A DNA stretch of 64,000 bases, from contig NZ_JAKZLA010000002.1 in assembly GCF_022808775.1 (NCBI RefSeq), positions 434,001 to 498,000 on the forward strand, read 5' to 3'. The notes beneath the pieces are model-generated. The model searched no databases. It was given only the letters and a program-made list of their open reading frames with translations, and was not told where the DNA came from. Made by a program: the position numbers and the translations under genes. Positions within the stretch are counted from its first letter, which is position 1. The number at the start of each line of letters is the position of its first letter. Below are positions 35,186 through 49,665 of this stretch, piece after piece. This DNA comes from Geothrix terrae (lineage in GTDB: Bacteria > Acidobacteriota > Holophagae > Holophagales > Holophagaceae).

Positions 35186-37609
35186 ATGGCGATCTCCACG
35201 GGCCGTATGGCCCTGTCCTTCCTCACCGCGGCCCTCGCCGCCGGTTCCCTCAGCGCTCGGCTCCCGCAGGATTCCCCGCGCGCCGATGCGGCCGCCCAGC
35301 ACCTGCTGGCCAGCCGCGCGCAGCTGGGATTGAATGCGGACCACGCGTTCCTGCTCCGCGGCGCCCATGCCGACCAGCTCGGCCAGTCCCATGCGCACTT
35401 CCAGCAGACCTACAAGGGCGTGAAGGTGTGGGGCGGCGACGTCATCACCCACACCGCCAAGAACGGCTCGGAGCTGCCCCTCACGAACGCCCTGCTCAAG
35501 GGCATCCAGCTGAACGTGACTCCCTCCCTCGACGCCGCGGAGGCCCTGGCCGTCGTCCAGAGTGACCTGGCCCCCAAGGGCGCCTATGCCTACGCCCCGA
35601 CCACCGAGCTGGTGGTCTACCCCGAGATGGCCGAGGTCGTCCGCCCCGGTCGCGCCGCCGCGGACCTGAACGCCGAGGACGTGTCCCGCGAAGTGCTCCG
35701 CTACACCCTGGCCTACCACGTCCACACCGAGCTGGAGAACGACCAGGACGGCATCAAGCACACCGACTACCTGGTGGACGCCCGCAACGGCGCCATCCTG
35801 AAGTCCTGGAACACCCTCCACACCACCGCCGCCACCGGCACCGGCAACAGCCAGTACAACGGCACGGTCTCCCTGCCCACGAACTACACCGGCAGCACCT
35901 ACGAGCTGCGGGACATGACCCGCGGCAGCGGCGGCTCCTTCGGCAACAACGTGGTCACCAACATGGCCCACGCCTCCACCAGCAGCACGGCCACGGGCAC
36001 GCTCTACACCGACGCCGACAACACCTGGGGTGACGGCGCCAACTATGTCGAAGGCGGCTCCACCACCGCCGCCAACGGCGAGACGGCGGCCGTGGACGCC
36101 ATGTTCGGCATGATCAAGAGCTGGGATTTCTACAAGAACGTCTTCGGCCGCAACGGCATCGACGGCGCCGGCACGGCCACCTACAGCCGAGTCCACATCG
36201 GCAACGGCTACGACAACGCCTTCTGGTCCGACAGCTGCTTCTGCATGACCTACGGCGACGGCACCAGCTTCACCACGCTCACCGCCCTGGACGTGGCCGG
36301 CCACGAGATGAGCCACGGCGTCTGCGCCCGCACCGCCAACCTCACCTACTCCGGCGAGTCGGGCGGCCTGAACGAGTCGAACTCGGACATCTTCGGCACC
36401 ATGATCGAGTTCTACGCCCGCGGCGGATCGGGTTCCACCATCGGCAGCACCGGCGGCAACTGGACCATCGGCGAGCAGCTGGCCACCAACCCCCTGCGCT
36501 GGATGTACAAGCCCAGCCTCGACGGCTCCAGCCCCGACGCCTGGTCCTCCACCATCGGCAGCCTGGACGTGCACTACTCCAGCGGCCCCATGAACCGCTG
36601 CTTCTACTTCCTCAGCCAGGGCGCCACCACCAGCGGCAACACCAGCACCACCTACCTGCCCAACGGCATGACCGGCATCGGCAATGACAAGGCCGCGGCC
36701 ATCTGGTTCCGCGCCCTGACGGTCTACATGACCTCCAGCACGAACTACGCCGGGGCCCGCAGCGCCGCCATCAGCGCCGCCAAGGACCTCTACGGCGCCG
36801 GCGGTGCCGAGGAGCAGGCCGTGTGGAACGCCTTCCACGGCATCAACGTGGGCGCCGCCTGGACCAGCAGCACGGACACCACCGCCCCCACCGTCAGCGT
36901 CACCGAGAGCGGGACCTCCGGAACCATCACCTTCACCGCGACCGCCAGCGACAATGTGGGCGTCACCAAGGTGGAGTTCTACGTCGATGGCGCCTTGAAG
37001 GGCACCGACACGGCCACCCCCTGGACCCTGTCCTTCGACAGCACCACGCTGACCAACGGTTCCCACAACCTGGTCGCCAAGGCCTATGACGCGGCCGGCA
37101 ACGTGGGCACCAGCACCACCGTCAGCTTCTCCGTCTCCAACAGCACCTCCGGCACGGAGCTGGTCCTGAACGGCGGCTTCGAGAGCGGCGCCACCAGCTG
37201 GACCCAGACCACCGGCGTCATCGGGACCTACACCGGCGAGCCCGCCCACACCGGTTCCTACGATGCCTGGATGTGCGGCTACGGCTCTGCCCACACGGAC
37301 TACATCTACCAGCAGATCGCCATCCCCAGCACCGCCACCGGGACCCTGACCTTCTGGCTCCACGTCGACACGGCGGAGACCACCACCACCACCGCCTACG
37401 ACACCATGAAGGTGCAGGTCCTCAACACCTCCGGCACCGTGCTGGCCACCCTGGCCACCTACTCGAACCTGGACAAGGGCACGGGCTACACCCAGAAGTC
37501 GCTGAGCCTCAGCGCCTACAAGGGCCAGACCATCCGCCTGCGCTTCTACTCCGTGGAGGACAGCAGCCTCCAGACCTCCTTCGTCGTCGACGATGTGAGC
37601 GTCAAGTAG
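35186..37609 (+). CDS. Secreted M4 (thermolysin-like) metalloprotease
   Basis: Secreted zinc protease of 807 residues. Signal peptide to about residue 24; FTP-type propeptide to about 210; M4 catalytic domain about 215-560. HEMSH at 373-377 with Glu397 in GGLNESNSD gives the zinc ligands and catalytic Glu374. An Ig-like domain (about 570-655, TAPTVSVTESGTSGTITFTA) and a jelly-roll-like C-terminal domain beginning LVLNGGFESGATSW follow; the latter is of a type that often binds carbohydrate. AAGGAG precedes the ATG. It is a single-gene unit with its own AT-rich leader and terminator. Confidence 0.94.
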   Translation: MAISTGRMALSFLTAALAAGSLSARLPQDSPRADAAAQHLLASRAQLGLNADHAFLLRGAHADQLGQSHAHFQQTYKGVKVWGGDVITHTAKNGSELPLTNALLKGIQLNVTPSLDAAEALAVVQSDLAPKGAYAYAPTTELVVYPEMAEVVRPGRAAADLNAEDVSREVLRYTLAYHVHTELENDQDGIKHTDYLVDARNGAILKSWNTLHTTAATGTGNSQYNGTVSLPTNYTGSTYELRDMTRGSGGSFGNNVVTNMAHASTSSTATGTLYTDADNTWGDGANYVEGGSTTAANGETAAVDAMFGMIKSWDFYKNVFGRNGIDGAGTATYSRVHIGNGYDNAFWSDSCFCMTYGDGTSFTTLTALDVAGHEMSHGVCARTANLTYSGESGGLNESNSDIFGTMIEFYARGGSGSTIGSTGGNWTIGEQLATNPLRWMYKPSLDGSSPDAWSSTIGSLDVHYSSGPMNRCFYFLSQGATTSGNTSTTYLPNGMTGIGNDKAAAIWFRALTVYMTSSTNYAGARSAAISAAKDLYGAGGAEEQAVWNAFHGINVGAAWTSSTDTTAPTVSVTESGTSGTITFTATASDNVGVTKVEFYVDGALKGTDTATPWTLSFDSTTLTNGSHNLVAKAYDAAGNVGTSTTVSFSVSNSTSGTELVLNGGFESGATSWTQTTGVIGTYTGEPAHTGSYDAWMCGYGSAHTDYIYQQIAIPSTATGTLTFWLHVDTAETTTTTAYDTMKVQVLNTSGTVLATLATYSNLDKGTGYTQKSLSLSAYKGQTIRLRFYSVEDSSLQTSFVVDDVSVK

Positions 37610-37625
37610 TCGGAACGAACCACGG

Positions 37626-37653
37626 AAAGGGCCGCCTCCGGGCGGCCCTTTTT
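37626..37653. terminator. Bidirectional terminator between the M4 protease and recN
   Basis: Stem AAAGGGCCGCC / GGCGGCCCTTT with a TCCG loop and five T on the plus strand. It reaches the last base of the convergent recN stop codon, so it may serve both genes. Confidence 0.88.
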
Positions 37654-39335
37654 CATCCTTCGAGCAGCACCTTCGCGTGCTCCAGGGCTTCGGGGCGGTC
37701 GGGGTGACCCGAGAGGAGCCGGGCCAGCTCGCGGTTTCGAGTCTCGCCCGCCACCCAGCCCAGGGCACTGCGGGTGCGGCCGCCCTCGGTCTCCTTGTGC
37801 AGGCGCCCGTGCCGGTCGGCCCGAGCCGCCACCTGGGCCAGATGCGTCACCGCCAGCACCTGGTGGGCCTTCCCGAGTTCCGCCACGGCCTTGCCCACGG
37901 CCAGGGCCGTCTCGCCACCGAGGCCCGCGTCCACCTCGTCGAGCACCAGGGTGAGGCCGTCTTTCACGCCTGCTCCGAGAGCCAGGCCCGCACCCACCAG
38001 GGCCAGCATGAGGCGACTCAACTCGCCACCGGAGGCGATCTTGGCCAGGGGGCGGAAGCCCTCGCCGGGGTTCGGCTCGATCCAGATGGCCAGGGCCGAG
38101 AAGCCCTGCGCCGCCACGCGCACGGGCCGGCCGCTCTGCTGGACCGGACTGCCGGGTTCCTCCGCGAGGGCCAGCCGCAGCTGGAGCCGCGCGCCCTTCA
38201 TGCCCAGGCGACCCAGCCGCTTCTGGACCTCGGCTTCCAGTTTCGGGATGGCTTCAGACCGGCGGCCGTGCAGCGCTTCGGCCACCTGCCGGTAGGCCTC
38301 CGCGGCCTTCACCAGGGCCTTCTCCAGCTCCTTCACGGAGACATCGCCGGCCAGCAGGGCCCGCTGCTCGTCCTTGAGGGCCTGCTGGCGCGTGGCCAGA
38401 TCTTCGGGCTCGCAGCGGTGGCGGCGGGCCAGGCGTTCGTAGAGGGCGAGCCGGGCCTCCATGGCCTCGATGCGGTCGGCGCCGGCCTGGGACCAGCGCA
38501 GGGCCTGGTCCTGGGCCAGGGCCAGGAGGTCCTCCAACTCCAGCACCGCAGAGCGCAGGCGATCCTGCTCGGCCACGGCGTCCGGCCAGTGGGTCACGGC
38601 GCGCACCAGCGCCTTGTGGGCCAGCTCCACCTTGGGAATGCCCGCGTCCAGGGCCTCGGCGGCCTCCCGGAAGGCCTGTTCCAGGTGGACGGCATGCCGC
38701 AGGGGCTCGCGGTCAGCCTTGAGCTGGGTCCACTCGCCGGGCTTCGGCGCCAACTTCTCCAGGTCGGCCAGGGCCTCCGCGAGCTGCTCCAGCCGCTGCT
38801 CCCGCTCCGCCTCGCTGCGGCGCCGGGCCTTCAGCGCCGCCTCGGCCTCCCGCACGGCGACGGCCTGCGCCTCCAGACCCGGTTCGATCCCGAGCACCTC
38901 GTCGATGAGCGTCAGGTGCCGCTCCTCGCCCAGCAGCGACTGATGGTCGTGCTGGCTGGTGAGGCGCATCCAGAGCCGGCCGGCCTCCCGCAGATCCGCC
39001 AGAGCGCAGCTGGCGCCGTTGATCCAGGCCCGGCTCCGGCCCGGTCCGACTTCGCGGCGCAGCACCACCGGCTGTTCCTCCGGCAGCCCCCGCTCGGCCA
39101 GGAAGGCCCGCCAGGCCTCGAAGCGGCCCTCCACCACGGCCTCCACCGTGGCCCGCTCCGCGCTATGGCGCACCAGCTCCCCATCGCCGCGGGCGCCCAC
39201 CAGCAGCGAGAGCGCGTCCACCAGCAGGGACTTGCCCGCCCCTGTCTCGCCTGTCAGCACCGTGAAGCCCGGCCCCCAGTCCAGGGACAGGTCTTCCACC
39301 AGGGCCAGGTTCTGGATTCTGAGGGATGAGAGCAT
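37653..39335 (-). CDS. recN: DNA repair protein RecN
   Basis: SMC-like ATPase of 560 residues that acts in double-strand break repair. Walker A GETGAGKSLLVDALSLLVGA is near residues 29-48; the central region is a long coiled coil; the C-terminal half has SGGELSRLMLAL (ABC signature), LVLDEVDAGLGGETA (Walker B) and AVTHLAQVAARAD. Length is normal. Its 3' end is shared with the M4 gene terminator and the amidohydrolase gene lies 4 bp upstream, so the two may be co-transcribed. Confidence 0.97.
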   Translation of the reverse strand: MLSSLRIQNLALVEDLSLDWGPGFTVLTGETGAGKSLLVDALSLLVGARGDGELVRHSAERATVEAVVEGRFEAWRAFLAERGLPEEQPVVLRREVGPGRSRAWINGASCALADLREAGRLWMRLTSQHDHQSLLGEERHLTLIDEVLGIEPGLEAQAVAVREAEAALKARRRSEAEREQRLEQLAEALADLEKLAPKPGEWTQLKADREPLRHAVHLEQAFREAAEALDAGIPKVELAHKALVRAVTHWPDAVAEQDRLRSAVLELEDLLALAQDQALRWSQAGADRIEAMEARLALYERLARRHRCEPEDLATRQQALKDEQRALLAGDVSVKELEKALVKAAEAYRQVAEALHGRRSEAIPKLEAEVQKRLGRLGMKGARLQLRLALAEEPGSPVQQSGRPVRVAAQGFSALAIWIEPNPGEGFRPLAKIASGGELSRLMLALVGAGLALGAGVKDGLTLVLDEVDAGLGGETALAVGKAVAELGKAHQVLAVTHLAQVAARADRHGRLHKETEGGRTRSALGWVAGETRNRELARLLSGHPDRPEALEHAKVLLEG

Positions 39336-39339
39336 GGAA

Positions 39340-40572
39340 TCAGTCTATCGGAGGGCGGGGCCCGGCCACGGAGCCCGAGGGGAGGATTTGGACGCTCCGG
39401 GCCGCTTCGTCGATCCGGATCTCGCGCCAGGGGAGATCTCCGGACGCCAGTCCGTAGCCTGCCAGCAGCTCCTCCAGGCTCAGGCGCTGGCCCTCGAAGG
39501 GTGGGAAGAGGCTCCACTGGGCGGCGTAGGCCAGGCCGTGGGGCATGCCGTCCGAGCCGAAGATCAGGTCACGGCCCGGCCGGAACCCCACCCGGTCGAT
39601 GAGCGTCCGGAAGGGATTGTTCCGCGCCAGCGTGTCCGGGCCCAGACGGTCGGCGTAGTCCACGCTGTCGCTGGTGAAGTTGGGCTGCATGGAGAGCACC
39701 AGCCCCAGGTCCCGGGCCCGGCGGGCCTGGGCCTCGGTGATGAACTGGACGTGCTCCAGACGGACCTGGGGAAAGCGGAGGCCCTGCCGGTCCAGGTCCT
39801 CCAACGCCCCCAGCGCCTGGCCAATGGCCCGGTCCCCGATGGCGTGGACGGCCAGGGCCTTGCCGTGAGGATGGAGGGCGGCCAGGGCCTGCCGCAAGCC
39901 CTCGTCGGTGTGAAGCAGGAGGCCCGGGGCCCCGTCCAGGAAGGGCTCAGCCAGGGCCGCCGTGCGGCCGCCCAGGGCCCCGTCGGTGAAGACCTTCAAG
40001 CCTGCACATTCGGCTTGGGCCTCAGAAGGCAGGGCCTCGAAGAGGGCCGGGACCGTCCACCAGGGCATGCGATCCGCCCAGCGGGATGCCCGAATCACCC
40101 GCCAGGCCGCCTCGCCCGTGAGGAGCAGGTCCTCCACAGCCCCGGTGCCCGTGGCTTCGAGCCCCTGGATCCAGGCTTCCAGCTTGGCGGCCGTGAGGCC
40201 CGCCGTGCGGCCGTAGAGGACCAGGAGCCGATCCAGGTTCCGCTCGCACCAGGCGGGGTCGCCGTGGCGGGCCACCAGCTCCGGGTCCGTGTCCTGGAGC
40301 ATCTCGGCGGCTCCAGGGCTGAGGCGCAGGCCGTGGAGGCTGAAGTTCACCAGGAGCAGGGGCGGCAGGCCCGAGATGTCGGCTTCCGAAAGGGGCAGGC
40401 GCCCGCTATGCCAGCCCCGGACCAGGGAGAGCCAGCCCTCCGGCAGGGCCCGCATCAGGCGCAGCGCGGTGGCCGGGCTGGCGCAGGCCGAGAGATCCAG
40501 GCAGCCTTGCAGGGCCGCATAAAGGCTCACGTGGGAGTGGTGGTCGACGATGGGCGCGAAGCGGTGCGGCAT
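39340..40572 (-). CDS. Amidohydrolase family 3 (YtcJ-like) metal-dependent hydrolase
   Basis: Cytoplasmic amidohydrolase of 410 residues from the Met at 40572 (MPHRFAPIVDHHSHVSLY). DHHSH is the HxH metal motif of the TIM barrel; LAVHAIGDRAIGQAL, RLEHVQFI and IFGSDGMP carry the other metal and catalytic residues. A 28-residue in-frame extension upstream is not used here as it lacks homology. Relatives hydrolyse amides of varied substrates; the substrate is unknown. It is next to recN but the functional link is not evident. Confidence 0.83.
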   Translation of the reverse strand: MPHRFAPIVDHHSHVSLYAALQGCLDLSACASPATALRLMRALPEGWLSLVRGWHSGRLPLSEADISGLPPLLLVNFSLHGLRLSPGAAEMLQDTDPELVARHGDPAWCERNLDRLLVLYGRTAGLTAAKLEAWIQGLEATGTGAVEDLLLTGEAAWRVIRASRWADRMPWWTVPALFEALPSEAQAECAGLKVFTDGALGGRTAALAEPFLDGAPGLLLHTDEGLRQALAALHPHGKALAVHAIGDRAIGQALGALEDLDRQGLRFPQVRLEHVQFITEAQARRARDLGLVLSMQPNFTSDSVDYADRLGPDTLARNNPFRTLIDRVGFRPGRDLIFGSDGMPHGLAYAAQWSLFPPFEGQRLSLEELLAGYGLASGDLPWREIRIDEAARSVQILPSGSVAGPRPPID

Positions 40573-40754
40573 GGGACCTGTGGAGAGAGGTGGCTCCCCT
40601 GAGCCTGCCAGTGCCGGGGACCTCCTGCGTGCATTTTTCGCCGCGCCATGGGCCATCCAGGCCTCAGGCGGAGCGGGCCCTCAGGCCTCCTGGAGGACCG
40701 AACGCAGCCCCGGCGGCGGCTGAGGCGGCGAAAGGGGGGCCAGTCGACCTTCAG

Positions 40755-42230
40755 CTATTGAAGAATTTTCGCCAATCCCGCGACGCCTTGAAGGATCTGC
40801 GAGGGGGCCAACGCGGCGAAGCCGAGGACGAATCCATGGGCAGGCCTTTCTCTCAGATACATGCGCGAGAGCGTGGGCAGATCCAGCCCGAGCTTCTCGC
40901 CCTTTTTGGAAAGCGCGGTGTCGTCGGACCCTTGAGGGAGGAAGGCTGTCAGGTGGAACCCGCCCTCTCCTTCCATCACCCGGAGTTTCCCGGAAGTGCG
41001 GGCGGCGAGCGCTTCCAGAAGGATGGCCCTCCGCCCTTGGTAAAGGTTCTTCATTTTCCTTAAGTGGGTGGAGATGTGGCCGTCATGGAGGAAGTCCGCG
41101 AGCACGGCTTGGCTCAGGGACGGGGAATGACCGTCCTGCAAGGACCGAGCGCGGGTCATGGCCTCGGCGATGCGCTGCGGCGCGACGACGTAGGCGAGTC
41201 GAAGGCTCGGGAACAGCGCCTTGGTGAGGGTTCCGACATACACCACGGGGGCATCAGCCTCGAGACCCTGAATGGCTGGATGGGGCCTTCCGGTGTAGCG
41301 GAATTCACTGTCGTAGTCGTCCTCGATGATCCAGCTTCCGGTCCGCCGCGCCCACGTGAGGAGCGCCAGGCGCCGTTCCAGGCTGAGCGCCGGGCCCGTG
41401 GGGTACTGGTGGGAAGGCGTGACGTACGCCAGCTTTGCCCTGGGCGCCAGCGCGGTCCCCTGTTCCACATCCAGGCCCTGCTCATCCACGGGGACGGGTA
41501 CCAGATCCGCCCCTGCGTTCTGCAGCGCGACGCGGGCTCCGAGATATCCCGGATCTTCGATCCAGGCCTTGTCCCCTGGGTCCAGGAGCATCCTGCTGGC
41601 GAGGTCCAGAGCCTGCTGGGAGCTCGTGAGGATGAGCACTTGTTCGGGCGAGCACCTCACGCCGCGCGAGCTGATGAGGTATTCCGAGAGGGCCTCGCGC
41701 AGGGGGCCGTACCCGGCAGGGTCTCCGTAACCCAGAAGCGCCTGGCCGCTCGTTCTGGAACGGCGCAGCAGCAGGCGATGCCAGAGATCATAAGGAAAGG
41801 CCTCTGGAGCCGGGTGTCCGCCCGCGAACGGTCTGCAGTCGAGAGGCTCGACGCACCCGCGAGTCTCGGCCAGGTAGGTGCCACGTTCAGAGAGGCCCAG
41901 CCGAGGTCCGGGCGCGCCGGTGCGAGGTGTGGCGCCGGAGGTGGGACGGAAGGTCGCCGGCAGGTGCTCGCTGACGTAGGTTCCGTCACCCACCCTGCGG
42001 GTAAGGAAACCCTCTCCCTCCAGCTTGGCCAAGGCCTCTTCTGCGGTGGTCCGGGAGACACCCAGGTCCGCGGCCAGGGTCCGGCTGGAAGGCAGCCGTG
42101 TCCCGGGTTTGAGGCCCCCCGTCAGGATGGCTTCTCGGATCCGTTTGTATAGCCTCAGGTAGAGAGGCTCTGAACCCGGAGACGTGAGCGCGAGGGAAGG
42201 GAACAGAACACCGCCTTGCGTTTTGCTCAT
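40755..42230 (-). CDS. MocR-type GntR/aminotransferase regulator
   Basis: A 491-residue PLP-binding transcription factor. N-terminal winged helix (YKRIREAILTGGLKPGTRLP, SRTTAEEALAKLEGEG) is of GntR type; the C-terminal domain is an aspartate-aminotransferase fold with the PLP lysine at 337 (GTLTKALFPSLR) and Asp/Tyr contacts in IIEDDYDSEFRY. MocR regulators sense PLP or an amino compound bound to it. It is divergent from the rhodanese, ATP-grasp and PLP-decarboxylase genes across a 138-bp gap, so these are its likely targets. GGAGG precedes the ATG. Confidence 0.92.
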   Translation of the reverse strand: MSKTQGGVLFPSLALTSPGSEPLYLRLYKRIREAILTGGLKPGTRLPSSRTLAADLGVSRTTAEEALAKLEGEGFLTRRVGDGTYVSEHLPATFRPTSGATPRTGAPGPRLGLSERGTYLAETRGCVEPLDCRPFAGGHPAPEAFPYDLWHRLLLRRSRTSGQALLGYGDPAGYGPLREALSEYLISSRGVRCSPEQVLILTSSQQALDLASRMLLDPGDKAWIEDPGYLGARVALQNAGADLVPVPVDEQGLDVEQGTALAPRAKLAYVTPSHQYPTGPALSLERRLALLTWARRTGSWIIEDDYDSEFRYTGRPHPAIQGLEADAPVVYVGTLTKALFPSLRLAYVVAPQRIAEAMTRARSLQDGHSPSLSQAVLADFLHDGHISTHLRKMKNLYQGRRAILLEALAARTSGKLRVMEGEGGFHLTAFLPQGSDDTALSKKGEKLGLDLPTLSRMYLRERPAHGFVLGFAALAPSQILQGVAGLAKILQ

Positions 42231-42368
42231 GCGCAGCCTCCCGGAAGGATCAACATCCAGCCGGCAAATGGTCTTGTCAATCTTTCAATAATGGATATTT
42301 CGATCAAACCAAAATGCTCCACACTCCAGCTGTCGAAGCCACTAGGCCCTTCAACAAAGGAGATCCCC
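42231..42368. promoter_or_regulatory. Divergent regulatory gap of the MocR cluster
   Basis: The 138-bp gap separates mocR from the rhodanese gene. A candidate plus-strand promoter is TTGTCA (42274-42279) with TATTTC 16 bases later. The middle is A+T-rich relative to the surroundings. No clean operator repeat can be named, although MocR factors usually bind direct repeats in such gaps. Confidence 0.4.
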
Positions 42369-42845
42369 ATGAATCCTTCCAACCCTCCCGCCAGCGAGGT
42401 CATCCCGTCCCGGGTGTTGGAGTACCTTTCCGAAGCGTCCCCGGATTCGATGGCGGCCGGATTCCTGGCCAAACTGACCCACGCCACGGATCCTTCCGAT
42501 GTGGCCGTGGATCTGGAGAACGGCGTGAACGGGTTCATCGTCGTGGACGCCCGCACACCCGAGGCCTACTCCGGCGGCCATATTCCGGGGGCCATCAACT
42601 TCCCCCACCGCACCATGAATGCGGCATCCACGGCGCACCTTTCGAAGGAGCTGGTGTACGTCACCTACTGTGACGGCATCGGGTGCAACGCCTCCACCAA
42701 AGCTGCCTACAAGCTCGCCTCTATGGGGTTCAAGGTGAAGGAGATGCTGGGCGGGTTGGATTGGTGGATTCGAGATGGATATGCCGTGGAAGTCGGAGCC
42801 AAGCCGGCTCGCGTTTTGGGGGCCGGCATCCGATGCGGTTGCTGA
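42369..42845 (+). CDS. Single-domain rhodanese-like protein
   Basis: A 158-residue rhodanese fold: VVDARTPEAYSGGHIPGAIN and the active loop CDGIGC with catalytic Cys101. The substrate loop CDGIGCN is of the small rhodanese type. It ends in CGC, two more cysteines that could relay sulfur. An AAGGAGAT Shine-Dalgarno, very strong, precedes the Met at 42369; the open frame upstream runs through the regulatory gap. It is the first gene of the divergent cluster, which implies a persulfide-transfer or redox step in the pathway. Confidence 0.87.
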   Translation: MNPSNPPASEVIPSRVLEYLSEASPDSMAAGFLAKLTHATDPSDVAVDLENGVNGFIVVDARTPEAYSGGHIPGAINFPHRTMNAASTAHLSKELVYVTYCDGIGCNASTKAAYKLASMGFKVKEMLGGLDWWIRDGYAVEVGAKPARVLGAGIRCGC

Positions 42846-42869
42846 GTCGCCTCTCGAAAGGATAAATGC

Positions 42870-43793
42870 ATGGATATCGCGATGGCGACCTGCCGGGATT
42901 GGCCGGCCGGTCATCCCGAAGACCAGCTTCTGGTGTCGGCCTTGGCCCGCATCGGCCTTGAGGGGCAAGCTGTGGTCTGGGATGAAGTGGCACCCAGTAA
43001 CCCGCGCCATGGCTGGCTTCTGCGCAGCGTGTGGGATTACCACCTACGCCTGGAGGAATTCCTGAGGTGGGTCGACGTGCGATCAGCTGAAGGAGCCTTG
43101 TGGAATTCACGAGAGCTCATCCGGTGGAATGCCCACAAGAGGTACCTCAAGGACCTTCAGCTCCGGGGACTGCCCGTCATCCCGACGCTCTGGGTCCGGG
43201 GTGGTGATATCCAGGACATCGATCTCTTGGGCCGTGGCTGGAAGGATGTGGTGATCAAGCCGGCTGTTGGAGCCAGCGCACACCATGCCGTCAGGTTGCC
43301 CGCGCACGCCAAGGACGAGATCCGAGCCCACACCCAGGCCATCACGCGCTTCACGGAAGCGATGATTCAGCCGTATTTCCCCGAAGTGGAGAGCTACGGC
43401 GAGCGTTCCTTCTTCTTCATCGAGGGGGTTTTCACCCACGCGGTACGCCGCCCCCCAGCGTTGCAGGAAGGCGTGGATCAGGAGGTTCGGCTCGCCAGGG
43501 TCGAACCCACGGACGAGGAGCTGGCGATCGGCCGCAAGGTCATCGAGGCACTTCCTGAATTGCCGCTTTACGCTCGGATGGATCTTGTTCCCGATGGGAA
43601 CGGACGGCAGCACCTCATGGAGGTGGAACTCATCGAACCCCGCCTCTTTCTCCGGGAGAGCCCGGAAGCCGCGACCGCCCTGGCAGACGCCCTCGGTGGC
43701 CGCATCGCTGAAAGCCTGCGAGCGTCCACCCTCAAGGCCGCCGCCCGGGTCAAGGGGACCCGAATCCGCCCTTGTGAACAGGAGGACCTATGA
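42870..43793 (+). CDS. ATP-grasp ligase (DcsG/RimK-like)
   Basis: A 307-residue protein with an ATP-grasp fold. The N-terminal half (SVWDYHLRLEEFLRWVD) matches a family of peptide- or amine-ligases that includes DcsG. The ATP-binding part shows VVIKPAVGASAHHAVRLP, YGERSFFFIEG and a metal-binding end MEVELIEPRLFL. Such enzymes activate a carboxylate with ATP and join it to an amine or thiol. AAAGGA lies 7 bases before the ATG. It overlaps the PLP-decarboxylase start by 4 bases, so the two are likely translated together. Confidence 0.87.
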   Translation: MDIAMATCRDWPAGHPEDQLLVSALARIGLEGQAVVWDEVAPSNPRHGWLLRSVWDYHLRLEEFLRWVDVRSAEGALWNSRELIRWNAHKRYLKDLQLRGLPVIPTLWVRGGDIQDIDLLGRGWKDVVIKPAVGASAHHAVRLPAHAKDEIRAHTQAITRFTEAMIQPYFPEVESYGERSFFFIEGVFTHAVRRPPALQEGVDQEVRLARVEPTDEELAIGRKVIEALPELPLYARMDLVPDGNGRQHLMEVELIEPRLFLRESPEAATALADALGGRIAESLRASTLKAAARVKGTRIRPCEQEDL

Positions 43794-45226
43794 CGATGCA
43801 CAGCCCCCTCTCCAACAACAATCAGGGCGTGAGCCTTTCCCGGGACATCTGGGGGCGGTTCGCAGATCAAGCGGAACGTTTTCAAACCACCATGCGGGAC
43901 CGCAAGGTCCTTCCGGTCGCGGATCCGAATCAGCTCCGGGCGCGCATCGCTCAGACATATGATTTCCAATCGCCCATCGACGCCGGCTCCCTGCTGGACG
44001 ATGTGGGCGATCTATTGGCCAATGGCCTGGTCCACGTCACACATCCCCGGTACTTCGGTCTGTTCAACCCCAGCGTCCGGCCCATCAGCGTCTTGGGGGA
44101 CGCGCTGACCGCGCTGTATAACCCCCAACTGGCGGTATGGTCCCACGCTCCCGCGGCCTGTGAACTCGACCGCCGCGCCCTGGCCACGATGAAGGAACTG
44201 ATCGGCTGGGAGGAGGGCGAAGGGCTCAGCAGCTTCACCACAGGGGGAGCCGAATCCAATCTCTGTGCGGTCCTTTCCGCCCTGTCGAGGGCGTTCCCGG
44301 AATGGGACGAGAAGGGATTGGCGGAACTCAGGCTTCGCCCGGTCATGTACCTATCCGCTGATGGGCACCACTCATTCGTCAAGGCCGCGCGGATGGCGGG
44401 CCTGGGAACACATTCGGTCCGCGAGGTTCCGGTCGATTCAACAAGGAGGATCGACCTTGAGCAGCTTGAAAGGCTCATGGCCAAGGATCGGGCAGAGGGG
44501 TACCACCCCTTCCTGCTGGTTGGAACCGCCGGAGCCACTGGCACAGGCGTGATCGATCCGCTGGTCGAGCTCCGCGAGATCGCGGACCGCCATCAGCTCT
44601 GGCTTCATGCCGATGCGGCATGGGGCGGTTCTGCCCTCATGAGCACCACCCTGAGGGTCCATCTCAAAGGCATCGAACGAGCCGACTCCGTGAGCTGGGA
44701 TGCCCACAAATGGCTCTCTGTCCCCATGGGGGCAGGCATGTTCTTTTCCAGGCATGCAGAGGCCACCCATCGGGCTTTTTCGATCAACGCCACGTACATG
44801 CCTGTCGCGCAGGATGCCATCCCCCAGGATCCCTTCGCGACCACCCCTCAGTGGTCCCGCCGCGGCATCGGCCTGAAAGTGTTCATGGCCCTGGCCGAGC
44901 TCGGGCTTCCCGGGTACGCGCGCATCATCGACCATCAGGCCTGCATGGGAGATCTCCTTCGGGTGCGTCTTCTCGAGGATGGCTGGGACATCGTCAACCA
45001 GACACCTCTGCCCGTCGTCTGCTTCAACCGGCCTGGGGTGGATTCCGCGGCCACGATCGGACGGCTGCTCAACCGGCTATACGAGGATGGCCAGGTATGG
45101 ATCTCCGGGCTGGCGTTGGGGTCGGATGCCCATGTCCTCCGTGCTTGCATCACCAGCTACCACACGACCGAGGAGGATGTGGCCTTTCTCGTTTCAGCCC
45201 TCAATACCGCTGCATCCCGCCTCTAG
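43790..45226 (+). CDS. PLP-dependent group II decarboxylase
   Basis: A 478-residue enzyme of the aromatic-L-amino-acid/glutamate decarboxylase class. SVSWDAHKWLSVPMGAG carries the PLP lysine (307); His193 (SADGHHSF) and Asp275 (LHADAAWGG) are the other cofactor contacts; TTGGAESNLCA binds the phosphate. It would remove CO2 from an amino acid such as a 2,4-diaminobutyrate, aspartate or aromatic substrate; specificity is unknown. It shares an operon with the ATP-grasp gene, so the amine product may be the ligase substrate or the reverse. Confidence 0.9.
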   Translation: MTMHSPLSNNNQGVSLSRDIWGRFADQAERFQTTMRDRKVLPVADPNQLRARIAQTYDFQSPIDAGSLLDDVGDLLANGLVHVTHPRYFGLFNPSVRPISVLGDALTALYNPQLAVWSHAPAACELDRRALATMKELIGWEEGEGLSSFTTGGAESNLCAVLSALSRAFPEWDEKGLAELRLRPVMYLSADGHHSFVKAARMAGLGTHSVREVPVDSTRRIDLEQLERLMAKDRAEGYHPFLLVGTAGATGTGVIDPLVELREIADRHQLWLHADAAWGGSALMSTTLRVHLKGIERADSVSWDAHKWLSVPMGAGMFFSRHAEATHRAFSINATYMPVAQDAIPQDPFATTPQWSRRGIGLKVFMALAELGLPGYARIIDHQACMGDLLRVRLLEDGWDIVNQTPLPVVCFNRPGVDSAATIGRLLNRLYEDGQVWISGLALGSDAHVLRACITSYHTTEEDVAFLVSALNTAASRL

Positions 45227-45317
45227 GATGGTCAGAAACCCCTGCTCTTACAGGAGAAGGGGGCCAGGGGATCATGCGCGCAGCCGCCCCAGTCATACTG
45301 ACTTCCGGAGGATCCCC

Positions 45318-46316
45318 ATGCAGTACCGGAAGCCCTGCGGCAGTGTTCTGGAGGCCATCGGCAATACGCCGCTGGTGCGGCTGCGCCGCGTCGTGTCGGA
45401 TCTTCCGGCGGAGGTCTTCGCCAAGCTCGAGTTCCTCAACCCCATGGGCAGCAGCAAGGACCGCATCGCCAAGCACATGATCGAGGCGGCGGAGCGGGAC
45501 GGCCGCCTGAAGCCCGGCGACACCATCATCGAGAACTCCTCCGGCAACACGGCCATGGGCCTGGCCCTCATGGCCATCCAGAAGGGCTACAAGCTTGTCG
45601 TCGTGGTGCGCGACACCATCTCCCAGGAGAAGCTGAATCAGCTGCTGGCCCTGGGCGCTCAGATCCACAAGGTGGACACGAGCCTGCCCCCCGAGCACCC
45701 GGACAGCTACAACAACATCACGCCGCGCCTGGCGAAGGAACTGCCTAACTGCTTCTTCCCCGACCAGCACGGCAACCGGGAGAACAACGCCGCCCACTAC
45801 GCCGGCACAGGCCCCGAGATCTGGGAGCAGATGGAGGGCCGCATCGACGTCCTGGTGGCCGGCGCCGGCACCGGCGGCACCATCGGCGGCGTGGGCCGCT
45901 ATCTGAAAGAGAAGGATCCGAAGATCAAGATCGTGGCCGTGGATCCCGTAGGCTCCGTCTTCACGCCCCACTTCCGCGGCGAGAAGGAGCTGAAGGCGGG
46001 TCCCTACAAGATCGAGGGCCTGGGCGACGAGTTCCTCATCCCCACCATGGAGTTCGAGCTCATCGACGAGATGTTCCAGGTGACGGACCGCGACGCCTTC
46101 CACCACGCGCGGCGGCTGGTGAAGGAGGAGGGCGTCCTGGGCGGCGGCTCCAGCGGCGCGGCGCTGTGGGCGGTGCGGCAGGTGGCTTTGGGCCTGCCCC
46201 CCATGGGCCGCCCCGCGCGCATCGTCACCGTGTTCCCCGATGGCGCCGGCCGCTACCTCAGCAGCATCTTCAACGATGCGTGGCTGGCAGAGCGGGGCCT
46301 CCTGGAGGCGGAATGA
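45318..46316 (+). CDS. Cysteine synthase / cystathionine beta-synthase-like enzyme
   Basis: Type II PLP enzyme of 332 residues without CBS domains. NPMGSSKDRIAKHMI carries the PLP lysine (47); ENSSGNTAMGLAL and AGAGTGGTIGGVGRYLKEKD are the phosphate- and substrate-binding loops. It could make cysteine from O-acetylserine with sulfide or cystathionine from serine and homocysteine. GGAGG lies 7 bases before the Met at 45318; the open frame starts further upstream within the decarboxylase gene. Its stop overlaps the start of an E1-beta gene. A relation to the rhodanese cluster upstream is possible but a 91-bp gap separates them. Confidence 0.88.
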   Translation: MQYRKPCGSVLEAIGNTPLVRLRRVVSDLPAEVFAKLEFLNPMGSSKDRIAKHMIEAAERDGRLKPGDTIIENSSGNTAMGLALMAIQKGYKLVVVVRDTISQEKLNQLLALGAQIHKVDTSLPPEHPDSYNNITPRLAKELPNCFFPDQHGNRENNAAHYAGTGPEIWEQMEGRIDVLVAGAGTGGTIGGVGRYLKEKDPKIKIVAVDPVGSVFTPHFRGEKELKAGPYKIEGLGDEFLIPTMEFELIDEMFQVTDRDAFHHARRLVKEEGVLGGGSSGAALWAVRQVALGLPPMGRPARIVTVFPDGAGRYLSSIFNDAWLAERGLLEAE

Positions 46317-47275
46317 CGGCCTTCTCCGGCACCTACGTCGACGCCATCCGCCAGGCGCTGTTCGACGCCATGGAGGCCGATCCCCGGGTCTGCTGCCTGG
46401 GCGAGGACATCGGCACCTACGGCGGCGCCTTCCGGGCCACGGAGGGTCTGCTGGACCGCTTCGGCCCGAACCGGGTGATCGACACGCCCATCTCCGAGCA
46501 GGCCATCGCCGGCGCGGCCATCGGCGCGGCGCTCATGGGCCAGCGGCCCGTGGCGGAATTCCAGTTCATGGACTTCGCCCTCCTGGCGTCCGACCTCATG
46601 GTGAACTTCGCCGCCAAGGCCCACTGGCGCTGGGGGGCCACCGTGTCCGCCGTGTTCCGGGGGCCCTCCGGCGCCGGCAACGGCGGCGGGCCCTTCCACA
46701 GCCAGAACCCCGAGGGCCATTTCCTCGGCAGCCCCGGCCTCAAGGTCGTCGCCCCCGGCACGGTGCGCGACGCCTACGCCCTCCTGCGCGCGGCCATCGA
46801 CGACCCCGATCCTGTCTTGTTCTTCGAGCACAAGCACCTCTACCGCCGCCTCAAGGACCAGTGGGACGAGGCCCCCGCGGCCCGGCTCGGCGAGGCGGCT
46901 CTGCGCAAGGACGGCTCGAAGGCCTGCGTGATCACCTACGGGGCCGCCCAGCACGTGGCCCTGGAAGCCGCGGCGGGCCTGGACGTGGCCGTGCTGGACC
47001 TGCGCACCCTCTGGCCCCTGGACGACCAGGCCATCACCGAGCTCGCGAAGCGGACCCATCGCGTCCTGGTGCTCACCGAAGCCAGCCTCACCTACGGGCC
47101 CGGCGCCGAGCTGGCCGCCCGCATCGGCGAGACCTGCTTCGGCTGGCTGGATGCCCCGGTGCTGCGGGTGGGAGCCGCGGACACGCCGATCCCCGCCAGC
47201 CCCCCCCTGGAGGCCGCCCACCTGCCCGGGACGAAGGCGGTGCGATCCGCCCTGGACCGTCTCCTGGCCTGGTAG
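46313..47275 (+). CDS. 2-oxoacid dehydrogenase E1 component, beta subunit
   Basis: A 320-residue thiamine-diphosphate E1-beta subunit of the pyruvate or branched-chain dehydrogenase type. LGEDIGTYGGAFRATEGL, DTPISEQAIAGAAIGAALMG and the central GGGPFHSQNPEGHF are family signatures. A matching alpha subunit is expected but none lies beside it: the upstream overlapping gene is a cysteine-synthase-like PLP enzyme. The E1-alpha, E2 and E3 genes are outside the window or the beta subunit has been recruited for another use. ATGA overlap indicates coupling. Confidence 0.88.
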   Translation: MTAFSGTYVDAIRQALFDAMEADPRVCCLGEDIGTYGGAFRATEGLLDRFGPNRVIDTPISEQAIAGAAIGAALMGQRPVAEFQFMDFALLASDLMVNFAAKAHWRWGATVSAVFRGPSGAGNGGGPFHSQNPEGHFLGSPGLKVVAPGTVRDAYALLRAAIDDPDPVLFFEHKHLYRRLKDQWDEAPAARLGEAALRKDGSKACVITYGAAQHVALEAAAGLDVAVLDLRTLWPLDDQAITELAKRTHRVLVLTEASLTYGPGAELAARIGETCFGWLDAPVLRVGAADTPIPASPPLEAAHLPGTKAVRSALDRLLAW

Positions 47276-47352
47276 ATCCCACGGAGGGCCCGCCGTCTGG
47301 CCAAAGGCCCTGCCTGTGATTTTCTGCTCGCGAACGGTAAATTCCCGCTCTA

Positions 47353-49665
47353 ATGAAGCGGATGATTCGGCCTTTACCAGCCCTGAAGATGATTGGCCTC
47401 GCCCTTTCCCTGGGCCTCCCGGGGGGTCAGGTCCTCCTGTCGGCGCCCCCTCCCCGCCTTCGGGCCAACCCTCCGCGTCCGGCCCCCCGCCCCTCCCAGC
47501 TCCAGATCCCGGCGCGCGCCCACGACCGCCGGTTGGAGGTGGCGGATGGCGCGGGCGGCTGGCGGCCCTTCTATGTCAAAGGCGTGAACCTGGGCGCCGC
47601 CATTCCCGGCCGGCACCCCAGCGAGTTCCCGGACCGGGCCACCTACGACGGGTGGATCCGGGAGATGGCGGAGGCGGGCTTCAACACGATCCGCGTCTAC
47701 ACCATCCATCCGCCTGCGTTCTACGAGGCTCTGCGCGCCTACAACCTCGGCGCCCGGAAGCCCATGCGGCTCATCCACGGCGTCTGGACCGAGCTGCCCC
47801 CCGGCCACGACTTCCTGGATCCCGCCTGGCTCGCGGCCTGGCACCGGGAGATGCGGGACGTGACGGAGGTGCTTCACGGCCGCGCCCGCATCCCCGACCG
47901 CCCGGGCCACGCCAGCGGCACCTATGGCGCGGACGTCAGCCCCTGGACCCTGGCGGTCATCCTGGGCCGCGAATGGGAATCCTCCAGCGTGGTGGCCTTC
48001 AACCGCCAGCACCCCGGAGTCTCGACCTGGACCGGCCGCTTCGTCGCGGTGCGGGAGGCCCACGCCATGGAGCGGTTCCTCGCCCAGAGCATGGACCACT
48101 TCCTCGCCGGGGAATGGGACCGGTTCCAGGCCCAGCGGCCCATCGCCTTCACCAACTGGCCCACCCTGGACCCCCTCTCCCACATCACGGAATCCACGGA
48201 ACAGGAGGAACGCGCCCTCCGACAGAAGCTCGGCATGGCGGTCGAGGCCCCGAACCCGGATCCCGAGGATGAGGACGCCGCCAGTCTGGACATGGAGAAG
48301 TTCGAGGGCACGGCAGACCTCAGGGCCGGCCTCTTCGCCAGCTACCACGCCTATCCCTACTACCCCGACTTCATGAACCTGGATCCCGGCTACGCCCAGG
48401 CCCGGGATCACCTGGGCCCCAGCCATTACGCGGGGTACCTCGCCGACCTGGTGAGGCATCACGCCCACCATCCGGTGCTCATCGCGGAATTCGGCGTACC
48501 CTCCTCCCGCGTCGTCGCCCACTGGCAGCCCCAGGGCATGACCCACGGCGGCCAGGGCGAGCGCGAGCAGGGCGAGCAGGATGCCCGGCTCCAGCGGGAC
48601 ATCTACGACGCGGGCTGCGCCGGGGGTGTGCTCTTCGCCTGGATCGACGAGTGGTTCAAGAAGAACTGGCTCACCCTGCCCTTCGAGCGCCCCTTCGAGC
48701 GGAAGCCGCTCTGGTACAACGCCATGGACGCCGAGGAGAACTACGGGCTCATCGCCTACCGGCCCGGCGCCAAGGGACCGTCCATCCTGATCGACGGCAA
48801 GGCGGACGACTGGGCCCGGATTCCGGCGTACCTCGAAGGCCGCGGCCTCTCCCTGAAGGTCGCGGCGGACGAGGGCTGGCTCCACCTCGGCCTGTTCCTC
48901 CCGCGCCCCGTGGAATTCTCGAAGGAAGCGATCCTCCTGGGCCTCGACACCGTGGATCCCCGCCGGGGCGACCACCGGCTTCCCTGGGTGGCGGGCCCGC
49001 GCAGCGAAGCCGGCCTGGAGTTCGTGGTCCTCTTCCAGGGGCCGGATCACACGGGGGTGTTCGTGGATGCCCCCTACGCCATCCCCGGCTACCGGCCCCT
49101 GCCCCATCACCGCTACCAGAGCGTGGCCAACGAGGCGGGCCGCTTCCTCCTGCCCACGGCCAAGAGCAACCATCCCCGGATCGGCCGGGACGGAACGCGG
49201 TTTCCGGGCCACACCACGGAGATCGGCTGGCTCCGCGAGGGGACCCAGGACCGCGCCGATCCCGCCTTCGACTCCCGCGCCGAATGGCAGGCGGGCCGGA
49301 GCCCCGACGGCCGGGGGTTCATCGAGGCGCGCATCCCCTGGACGCTGCTCCAGGTCACGGACCCGAGCCAGCGGATGGTCCTGGATGATCCCGGGAGGAA
49401 ACCCGGCGGCCCTCTGGAATCTTCCAAGTCGACCGGCTTCAGATTCGTGTTGGCGATCGTGGATGCCGACAAACCGCTCGGGGAAGGTCCGAGCACCCTC
49501 CGCCTCACCCTCCCCGCCGCCGTCCACGGCGCCATCCCCGTGCCGCCGCTCTACGCATGGCCGGCCTGGAACCGGCCGACCTTCCATCGCTTCCGCAAGC
49601 TCTCCTTCGCCATCTACCAGAAAGCCCTGGCCGCCACTCCCGACGAACCGAGGTTGCCCCGATGA
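47353..49665 (+). CDS. Exported glycoside-hydrolase-like protein with C-terminal CBM9/DOMON-like domain
   Basis: A 770-residue exported protein; a hydrophobic N-terminus (MIGLALSLGLPGGQVLL) is followed by a Pro/Arg-rich stretch. Residues about 60-470 resemble a GH-A clan TIM barrel: FYVKGVNLGAAIPG, MAEAGFNTIRVYTIHPP, ILGREWES and VLIAEFGVPSSR, the last two holding candidate acid/base and nucleophile Glu residues. Residues about 485-740 (SILIDGKADDWARI, FIEARIPWTLLQV) look like a CBM9/DOMON sandwich. It overlaps the TPR-barrel gene by 4 bases. In a polysaccharide operon it could trim or anchor the polymer. Exact family is uncertain. Confidence 0.72.
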   Translation: MKRMIRPLPALKMIGLALSLGLPGGQVLLSAPPPRLRANPPRPAPRPSQLQIPARAHDRRLEVADGAGGWRPFYVKGVNLGAAIPGRHPSEFPDRATYDGWIREMAEAGFNTIRVYTIHPPAFYEALRAYNLGARKPMRLIHGVWTELPPGHDFLDPAWLAAWHREMRDVTEVLHGRARIPDRPGHASGTYGADVSPWTLAVILGREWESSSVVAFNRQHPGVSTWTGRFVAVREAHAMERFLAQSMDHFLAGEWDRFQAQRPIAFTNWPTLDPLSHITESTEQEERALRQKLGMAVEAPNPDPEDEDAASLDMEKFEGTADLRAGLFASYHAYPYYPDFMNLDPGYAQARDHLGPSHYAGYLADLVRHHAHHPVLIAEFGVPSSRVVAHWQPQGMTHGGQGEREQGEQDARLQRDIYDAGCAGGVLFAWIDEWFKKNWLTLPFERPFERKPLWYNAMDAEENYGLIAYRPGAKGPSILIDGKADDWARIPAYLEGRGLSLKVAADEGWLHLGLFLPRPVEFSKEAILLGLDTVDPRRGDHRLPWVAGPRSEAGLEFVVLFQGPDHTGVFVDAPYAIPGYRPLPHHRYQSVANEAGRFLLPTAKSNHPRIGRDGTRFPGHTTEIGWLREGTQDRADPAFDSRAEWQAGRSPDGRGFIEARIPWTLLQVTDPSQRMVLDDPGRKPGGPLESSKSTGFRFVLAIVDADKPLGEGPSTLRLTLPAAVHGAIPVPPLYAWPAWNRPTFHRFRKLSFAIYQKALAATPDEPRLPR

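Follow-up and report, generated by a model that had tools for sequence, protein, structure and literature searches.

The cassette and its insertion site

We analysed a stretch of 64,000 nucleotides from Geothrix terrae (contig NZ_JAKZLA010000002.1; hereafter the window), in which a cassette of four genes occupies positions 40579..45285. The minus strand carries the gene of a MocR-type regulator (40755..42230), which is divergent from three genes on the plus strand. These encode a single-domain rhodanese with a CDGIGCN loop and a C-terminal CGC (42369..42845; Pfam Rhodanese, E 1.6e-14), an ATP-grasp ligase with a DcsG-type fold (42870..43793) and a group II amino-acid decarboxylase dependent on pyridoxal phosphate (PLP; 43790..45226; Pfam Pyridoxal_deC, PF00282, 2e-66). 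All four genes are intact, and their layout is as an earlier note on this DNA had described it, with the last two genes overlapping by 4 bases.

A gap of 24 bases separates the rhodanese gene from the ATP-grasp gene. The latter shares an ATGA (43790-43793) with the decarboxylase gene, and an AGGAGG lies at 43780-43785. If the decarboxylase in truth starts at the next ATG (43796), this overlap disappears. For the rhodanese, an AAGGAG stands immediately 5' of the ATG at 42369, and an alternative start at an upstream TTG (42216) is possible.

Comparison with sister loci by blastn matched the DNA of the window up to position 40578 and again from about 45283-45292, which places the ends of the cassette to within ~10 bases. 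In one sister locus (L098, genome G025) the window points 40578 and 45286 are only 66 bases apart, and in another (L102, genome G032) the points 40578 and 45292 are only 89 bases apart. The inserted DNA is ~4.7 kb long and differs in composition from its surroundings. The GC content at third codon positions (GC3) of the four genes is 0.764, 0.780, 0.744 and 0.756, below that of the flanking amidohydrolase (0.879), recN (0.907) and cystathionine beta-synthase-like (CBS-like, 0.931) genes, and total GC also falls across the cassette. The four genes are, with near certainty, a single acquired and compositionally foreign unit, and the simplest reading is that one block was inserted in the window's species. 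That these genes form a cluster, as the earlier note had held, is borne out, and they are more than a chance run, since the interval it reported is almost exactly this one discrete insertion.

The CBS-like gene (45318-46316) is the next gene on the plus strand and encodes a cystathionine beta-synthase/cysteine synthase-like PLP enzyme. We left it out of the cassette because it is a host gene of the genus (present in 44/47 genomes at E <= 1e-120), starts 91 bases past the decarboxylase gene and is preceded by a near-identical stretch that is kept in sister genomes. Among 29 sister loci (L009-L037), the position directly before it is taken by the amidohydrolase gene in 8, by recN in 7 and by another gene in 14. 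The two genes that flank the cassette thus stand side by side, with the cassette absent, in 8 of the 29 loci, and the four cassette proteins were found in none of the 29 within the 1.5 kb compared. In view of these differing occupants and the missing cassette proteins, we consider the interval from recN to the CBS-like gene (39335-45318) a variable site in the genus.

Counts across the phylum refer to samples of 297 genomes of the window's own phylum, with other phyla represented through PLSDB plasmids only. For these phylum counts, presence was scored at E <= 1e-15 for the ATP-grasp ligase and the rhodanese, E <= 1e-60 for the decarboxylase and E <= 1e-75 for MocR. Of the 47 genomes of the genus, 1 carries the gene of the ATP-grasp ligase, 1 that of the decarboxylase and 2 that of the rhodanese. 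The decarboxylase is found in 2/93 genomes of the class, the second being that of G092 (64% identical).

No Rfam match was obtained within 37000-49000, and promoter and terminator scans of the region stayed at or below chance level. A PADLOC scan for defence genes returned only weak DndA/SspA cross-matches of the decarboxylase, which reflect the PLP fold.

The regulator and its rhodanese partner

The regulator has the two-domain architecture of a MocR protein. A GntR-type winged helix-turn-helix (Pfam GntR, PF00392, 5.9e-20, residues 23-86) is followed by a fold-type I aminotransferase-like domain (Aminotran_1_2, PF00155, 3.7e-28, residues 159-442), in which a lysine lies within GTLTKALFPSLRLAY and, as judged by eye, may be the one that binds PLP. 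The protein scores 415.3 bits on the PdxR model NF052282, above the cut-off of 320, and 469 bits on the rhizopine MocR model, under the cut-off of 650. The PdxR model also matches 14/14 control genomes at E <= 1e-20 and exceeds its cut-off in 5/14, so the model is broad. Around the MocR gene we find the three cassette enzymes on one side and the amidohydrolase gene on the other; no PLP-synthesis genes adjoin it.

In a tree of 37 MocR proteins, from which L158 (361 aa), L130 (already represented by the G265 row) and L187 (split between two reading frames) were left out, the window's MocR falls into a clade (support 98/95) with proteins of G265, Serratia, Aeromonas and the congener G019. In G265, a single genome of another family, the MocR (50% identity) is divergent from an ATP-grasp gene whose product is 39% identical to that of the window. 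In Serratia, Aeromonas and G019, the MocR genes are divergent from that of the rhodanese (51-59%), in Aeromonas with an OsmC gene in between. Beside the other 32 MocRs, with flanks of 1.0-5.0 kb per side, neither this type of rhodanese nor this type of ATP-grasp ligase was found, barring a weak rhodanese-domain match in L174 (28%, E 2.7e-7) that lies inside an apparent MoeB/ThiF-type protein, as judged by eye. Fisher's test on 5/5 clade members against 0/32 others gives 2.3e-6, a value that is overstated, as the members were partly picked via rhodanese and ATP-grasp searches. A Gemmatirosa locus (L042) has GNAT, MocR and ATP-grasp genes in a row, with a MocR that falls far outside the window's clade.

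The MocR clade thus recurrently adjoins a rhodanese or an ATP-grasp gene of the types present in the cassette, which links the parts of the cassette and is good, but not formal, evidence. Because of this recurrent linkage and the divergent layout, MocR likely controls the divergent operon. In the parts of PMC5320631 cited here, MocR regulons contain PLP enzymes, including glutamate decarboxylase, as well as RimI/RimL acetyltransferases and OsmC; among the members of the PdxW/PdxQ regulons are acetyltransferases, OsmC and a cysteine desulfurase.

The presumed operator/promoter is the intergenic region between the MocR and rhodanese genes (42231..42368). It holds CAAATGGTC, which resembles AAATTGGTC upstream of two other members of the MocR clade and may serve as a lead. 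Such words recur upstream of the MocR clade, in L075, L103, L213 and the window. In shuffles, 1/60 gave a shared 9-mer as good as the best real one, and for lengths of 8, 10, 12 and 14 this was so in 4, 2, 4 and 20 of 60. We do not claim the AAATTGGTC-like word as a MocR operator motif, as the shuffles leave chance possible. The promoter scan detected no sigma-70-like site in this region.

The rhodanese belongs with the single-domain rhodaneses of the BH2092 type: BH2092 (3nhv) is its nearest solved structure by sequence (E 7.9e-31), and in the active-site loop C101 and C106 are invariant in 9/9 aligned rows. In 4/16 rhodanese loci, namely L213 (G019), L040 (Streptomyces), L039 (Methylobacterium) and L096 (G147), the rhodanese is followed by a GNAT acetyltransferase; these GNATs are one family, with 33-50% identity in the matches. 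The congener G019 (L213 2843-5324) has a divergent pair of MocR (51%) and rhodanese genes with the GNAT gene overlapping the rhodanese end, and neither an ATP-grasp nor a decarboxylase gene. In these loci the GNAT gene takes the slot that the ATP-grasp gene holds in the window. As GNATs and amide-forming ATP-grasp enzymes both acylate amines, the window may carry this switch joined to another kind of amine-acylating enzyme, together with a decarboxylase that could supply the amine.

The rhodanese family is also divergent from differing regulators, which are MocR in Serratia and Aeromonas and FtrA in Methylobacterium, Chimaeribacter and Pantoea (L038, L103, L039, L107, L193). On a Xenorhabdus plasmid (L104), a member of the same family (52%) lies inside an apparent cluster of the non-ribosomal peptide/siderophore type, in which PvdA and EctB are annotated.

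The ligase and the decarboxylase

An AlphaFold2 model of the ATP-grasp ligase (predicted local distance difference test score, pLDDT, 92.8) superposes on DcsG (6jil) with Z 33.3 and a root-mean-square deviation (rmsd) of 1.9 over 276 residues at 26% identity. Other matches within the same superfamily are RimK (Z 23.0), GshB (22.7) and Ddl (about 20). By sequence, DcsG was the only solved structure found, and the DcsG model NF058666 (E 1.3e-44) was the sole NCBIfam match at E <= 0.001, with a sub-threshold match to Pfam GSH-S_ATP. The description of the ligase as DcsG/RimK-like in the earlier note therefore stands as far as the fold is concerned, which is closest to DcsG, but the score of 152.6 bits is under the DcsG cut-off of 360 and RimK is a more distant match.

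The phylogenetic placement also sets the window's ligase apart from DcsG. In a tree of 33 rows, DcsG pairs with the protein of L059/G076 (100/98), whereas the window's ligase forms a lone long branch with weak placement (78/87). The genome G076, with its DcsG-paired ligase, belongs to the window's own family. An [F/Y/H]RVQ loop is present in 23/32 aligned relatives and absent from the window's ligase and eight others; the window's ligase may thus use another acceptor than the main group does. It keeps family-invariant residues such as K130 and E251 and, in the MEVELIEP motif, the E-x-E. According to the part of PMC8141765 cited here, it is common for ATP-grasp enzymes to couple a carboxylate to an amine or a thiol.

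The decarboxylase is an ordinary group II enzyme in both profile and fold, with the PLP lysine K307 and H306, D275 and H193 all invariant in 20/20 aligned rows. Its model (pLDDT 87.1) matches GAD65/67, GADL1, the lysine decarboxylase DfoJ and CSAD in a tie (Z 50.2-51.1), and GADL1 is the closest solved structure by sequence (E 1.3e-51). It stays under the cut-off of every substrate-specific NCBIfam model, including the equivalog cut-offs for PanP (aspartate; 148.1/606.1 bits), RhbB (diaminobutyrate; 137.1/900) and MfnA (tyrosine; 86/299.4). The window's genome encodes two further members of the family (32% and 29%). A substrate assignment from active-site residues was dropped, as the tied folds span acidic, basic and aromatic enzymes.

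In the mobile loop (around residue 350) the window's decarboxylase has Phe, while its relatives with a QWSRR motif have Tyr in 12/14 and Phe in 2/14, which we treat as a lead. In plant decarboxylases, replacing a Tyr of the catalytic loop by Phe turns the enzyme into an aldehyde synthase, as described in the cited part of PMC11308512. We set the corresponding activity aside for the window's enzyme, since this loop (343-357) is modelled with low confidence, Phe also occurs among the relatives and the Tyr concerned may be another one.

Occurrence, proposed function and known systems

Among the 297 phylum genomes, the ATP-grasp ligase occurs in 33, the rhodanese in 4, the decarboxylase in 19 and MocR in 40. 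Rhodanese and ATP-grasp are both present in G147 and G153, and ATP-grasp and decarboxylase in G140, G230 and G265, in each case never side by side. MocR stands beside 3/16 rhodanese loci (Serratia, Aeromonas and the congener G019). Assuming 6 MocR-like genes per genome, a figure taken from control genomes, a rough estimate of chance adjacency is 0.06 for the 16 rhodanese loci, where 3 are seen, and 0.14 for the 41 ATP-grasp loci, where 2 are seen.

The plasmid records inspected were 7/7 for the ATP-grasp ligase, 12/25 for the rhodanese and 2/11 for the decarboxylase. MocR matched 353 plasmid records, of which the best 60 were considered; four loci came in via a MocR match (H45-H48), and those of Serratia and Aeromonas via the rhodanese. 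For the comparison of neighbourhoods, 13 phylum decarboxylase loci were widened. A broad search of named-genome contigs with the ATP-grasp sequence recovered a single relative (L004, 15 pattern matches) and thus had low sensitivity. A literature search found no paper that combines ATP-grasp, MocR and decarboxylase.

We propose that the probable task of the four-gene cassette is to make a small amine compound or to modify one. The suggestion of a small-molecule pathway in the earlier note holds in so far as the genes are one acquired unit, the MocR clade links the parts and the ligase has a DcsG-like fold, but the decarboxylase is without a recurrent link to the others. More specifically, and tentatively, we favour a horizontally acquired cassette that is under the control of MocR and serves the metabolism of a small amino compound. 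Here, MocR would bind either an amino compound, in the form of a PLP external aldimine, or PLP, and so switch the divergent operon. The decarboxylase would convert an L-amino acid to an amine. The ATP-grasp enzyme, in place of the GNAT found after the rhodanese in related loci, would activate a carboxylate as an acyl-phosphate and couple it to this amine. The rhodanese, the constant partner of the MocR clade, may give persulfide or redox support. We regard serial action of the decarboxylase and the ligase as a plausible guess by analogy, and we infer both the order of decarboxylation before coupling, put forward in the earlier note, and the part of the rhodanese in supplying sulfur or redox equivalents.

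Several observations weigh against this proposal. The three enzymes, which the earlier note had expected to recur together if they form a pathway, rarely do so: in the samples of 297 phylum genomes, all three occur together only in the window's own genome. Outside the window, the loci compared for the ATP-grasp ligase (41), the rhodanese (16) and the decarboxylase (16) in no case have two of these enzymes side by side, and no second locus with the complete four-gene set was seen among those examined. MocR adjoins only 2/41 ATP-grasp loci (G265 and Gemmatirosa). The decarboxylase is linked to MocR, rhodanese or ATP-grasp in 0/16 other decarboxylase loci, and its neighbours there vary, among them an EamA transporter (L007), Lrp/AsnC (L111), a PaaI thioesterase (L108) and kinase genes. 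Moreover, the cassette encodes neither a transporter nor a carrier protein, nor any further tailoring enzyme.

In the main rival explanation, a MocR-rhodanese pair, a ligase and a decarboxylase with unrelated jobs were joined by insertion at a variable site, and the decarboxylase works on its own, either to produce a biogenic amine or to use up acid. Such a patchwork is possible, if somewhat doubtful. It would account for MocR-rhodanese pairs that lack the other enzymes in Serratia, Aeromonas and G019, for the MocR-ATP-grasp pair of G265 that lacks the rest, for a decarboxylase that stands alone in 16/16 other loci and for the variability of the interval between recN and the CBS-like gene. The tight packing of the three plus-strand genes, their one shared composition and a MocR clade that links both rhodanese and ATP-grasp argue against it. 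An unlikely alternative is that a PdxR/PdxW-like MocR senses PLP status, with rhodanese, acetyltransferase, OsmC and ATP-grasp proteins modifying surplus reactive amines for protection and the decarboxylase as a PLP-consuming passenger. The OsmC gene between MocR and rhodanese in Aeromonas, the PdxR score of the window's MocR and the PdxW/PdxQ regulons, with their acetyltransferases, OsmC and cysteine desulfurase in the cited part of PMC5320631, would suit this homeostatic role. However, the cassette has no gene of the pdxST/pdxO/pdxH type, the PdxR model is broad, and the MocRs that do stand beside pdx-type genes (tree rows L134 and L136, equal to loci L162 and L164 and named by eye, and L188/L190) fall outside the clade.

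The remaining explanations keep a pathway and change its chemistry. If ligation came first, the ATP-grasp enzyme would load or protect an amino acid and the decarboxylase would act on the conjugate. In butirosin biosynthesis, BtrJ and BtrK carry out ligation before decarboxylation, BtrK being of another PLP fold. The order of the genes, ligase before decarboxylase, and their translational coupling are in line with such a sequence of events, but gene order is weak evidence and a carrier-protein gene is missing from the cassette, so we consider it distinctly unlikely. A sulfur-amine pathway is more remote still and very improbable. Here, a GADL1/CSAD-like decarboxylase would make a small amine, which may bear a sulfinate group, the rhodanese would add sulfane sulfur to this amine or to the acyl-phosphate of the ligase, and the DcsG-fold ligase would conjugate it to a thiotaurine- or thioamide-like product, with the MocR clade sensing a sulfur amino compound. 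A rhodanese can act on hypotaurine. A D-cycloserine-type route with the ligase as DcsG, already disfavoured, is barely credible: DcsG is the best fold match and NF058666 does match, yet far under its cut-off, and DcsG itself pairs with the G076 protein in the tree and not with the window's ligase. The remaining genes of the cassette are not known to belong to the cycloserine pathway.

Across the phylum, ATP-grasp ligases with the DcsG fold have a scattered distribution, and a MocR clade that ties this fold to rhodaneses and amine acyltransferases provides a handle on them, as the MocR effector is expected to be their substrate or a compound near it. Should the coupling proposed for the cassette hold, one small operon would offer a genetically simple test of what such ligases and rhodaneses do.

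The statement of the earlier note that it knew of no described pathway with this gene set is too strong for the part formed by decarboxylase and ligase, since MfnA/MfnD and the fungal E-64 clusters use that logic. In methanofuran biosynthesis, a tyrosine decarboxylase (MfnA) supplies the amine to which an ATP-grasp tyramine:glutamate ligase (MfnD) joins a carboxylate, as described in the cited part of PMC8141765. The decarboxylase of the window falls well under the MfnA cut-off, and its ligase matches no MfnD-type model. To our knowledge, the MfnA/MfnD pathway has no MocR or rhodanese, and the window's cassette has no furan genes. The fungal E-64 clusters cp1 and cp2 resemble the window in that a PLP decarboxylase and an ATP-grasp enzyme belong to one small amide-making cluster. 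In these clusters, according to the part of PMC12568646 cited here, the ATP-grasp enzyme links epoxysuccinate with an amino acid, addition of the amine falls to an ANL enzyme, and the PLP decarboxylase is dispensable in a heterologous host; these differences count against a decarboxylase and ligase acting in series in the window.

For the individual parts, DcsG (6jil) has its fold and the E-x-E in common with the window's ligase and differs in tree branch, gene context and equivalog score. Control of an ATP-grasp gene by MocR, as we propose for the window, is found in Brevibacillus, where DdlR controls the gene of the D-Ala-D-Ala ligase Ddl (cited part of PMC6677901). Ddl belongs to another ATP-grasp family, as its lower Z score indicates. 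We know of no rhodanese or decarboxylase in the DdlR-ddl system. For the MocR-rhodanese pairs, no published description was found in a search that did not extend to the supplementary regulon tables of PMC5320631. The MocR-rhodanese(-GNAT) loci of Serratia, Aeromonas and G019 share with the window the MocR clade, the rhodanese family and the divergent layout, and differ in that GNAT (G019) or OsmC (Aeromonas) is found where the window has the ATP-grasp ligase and the decarboxylase.

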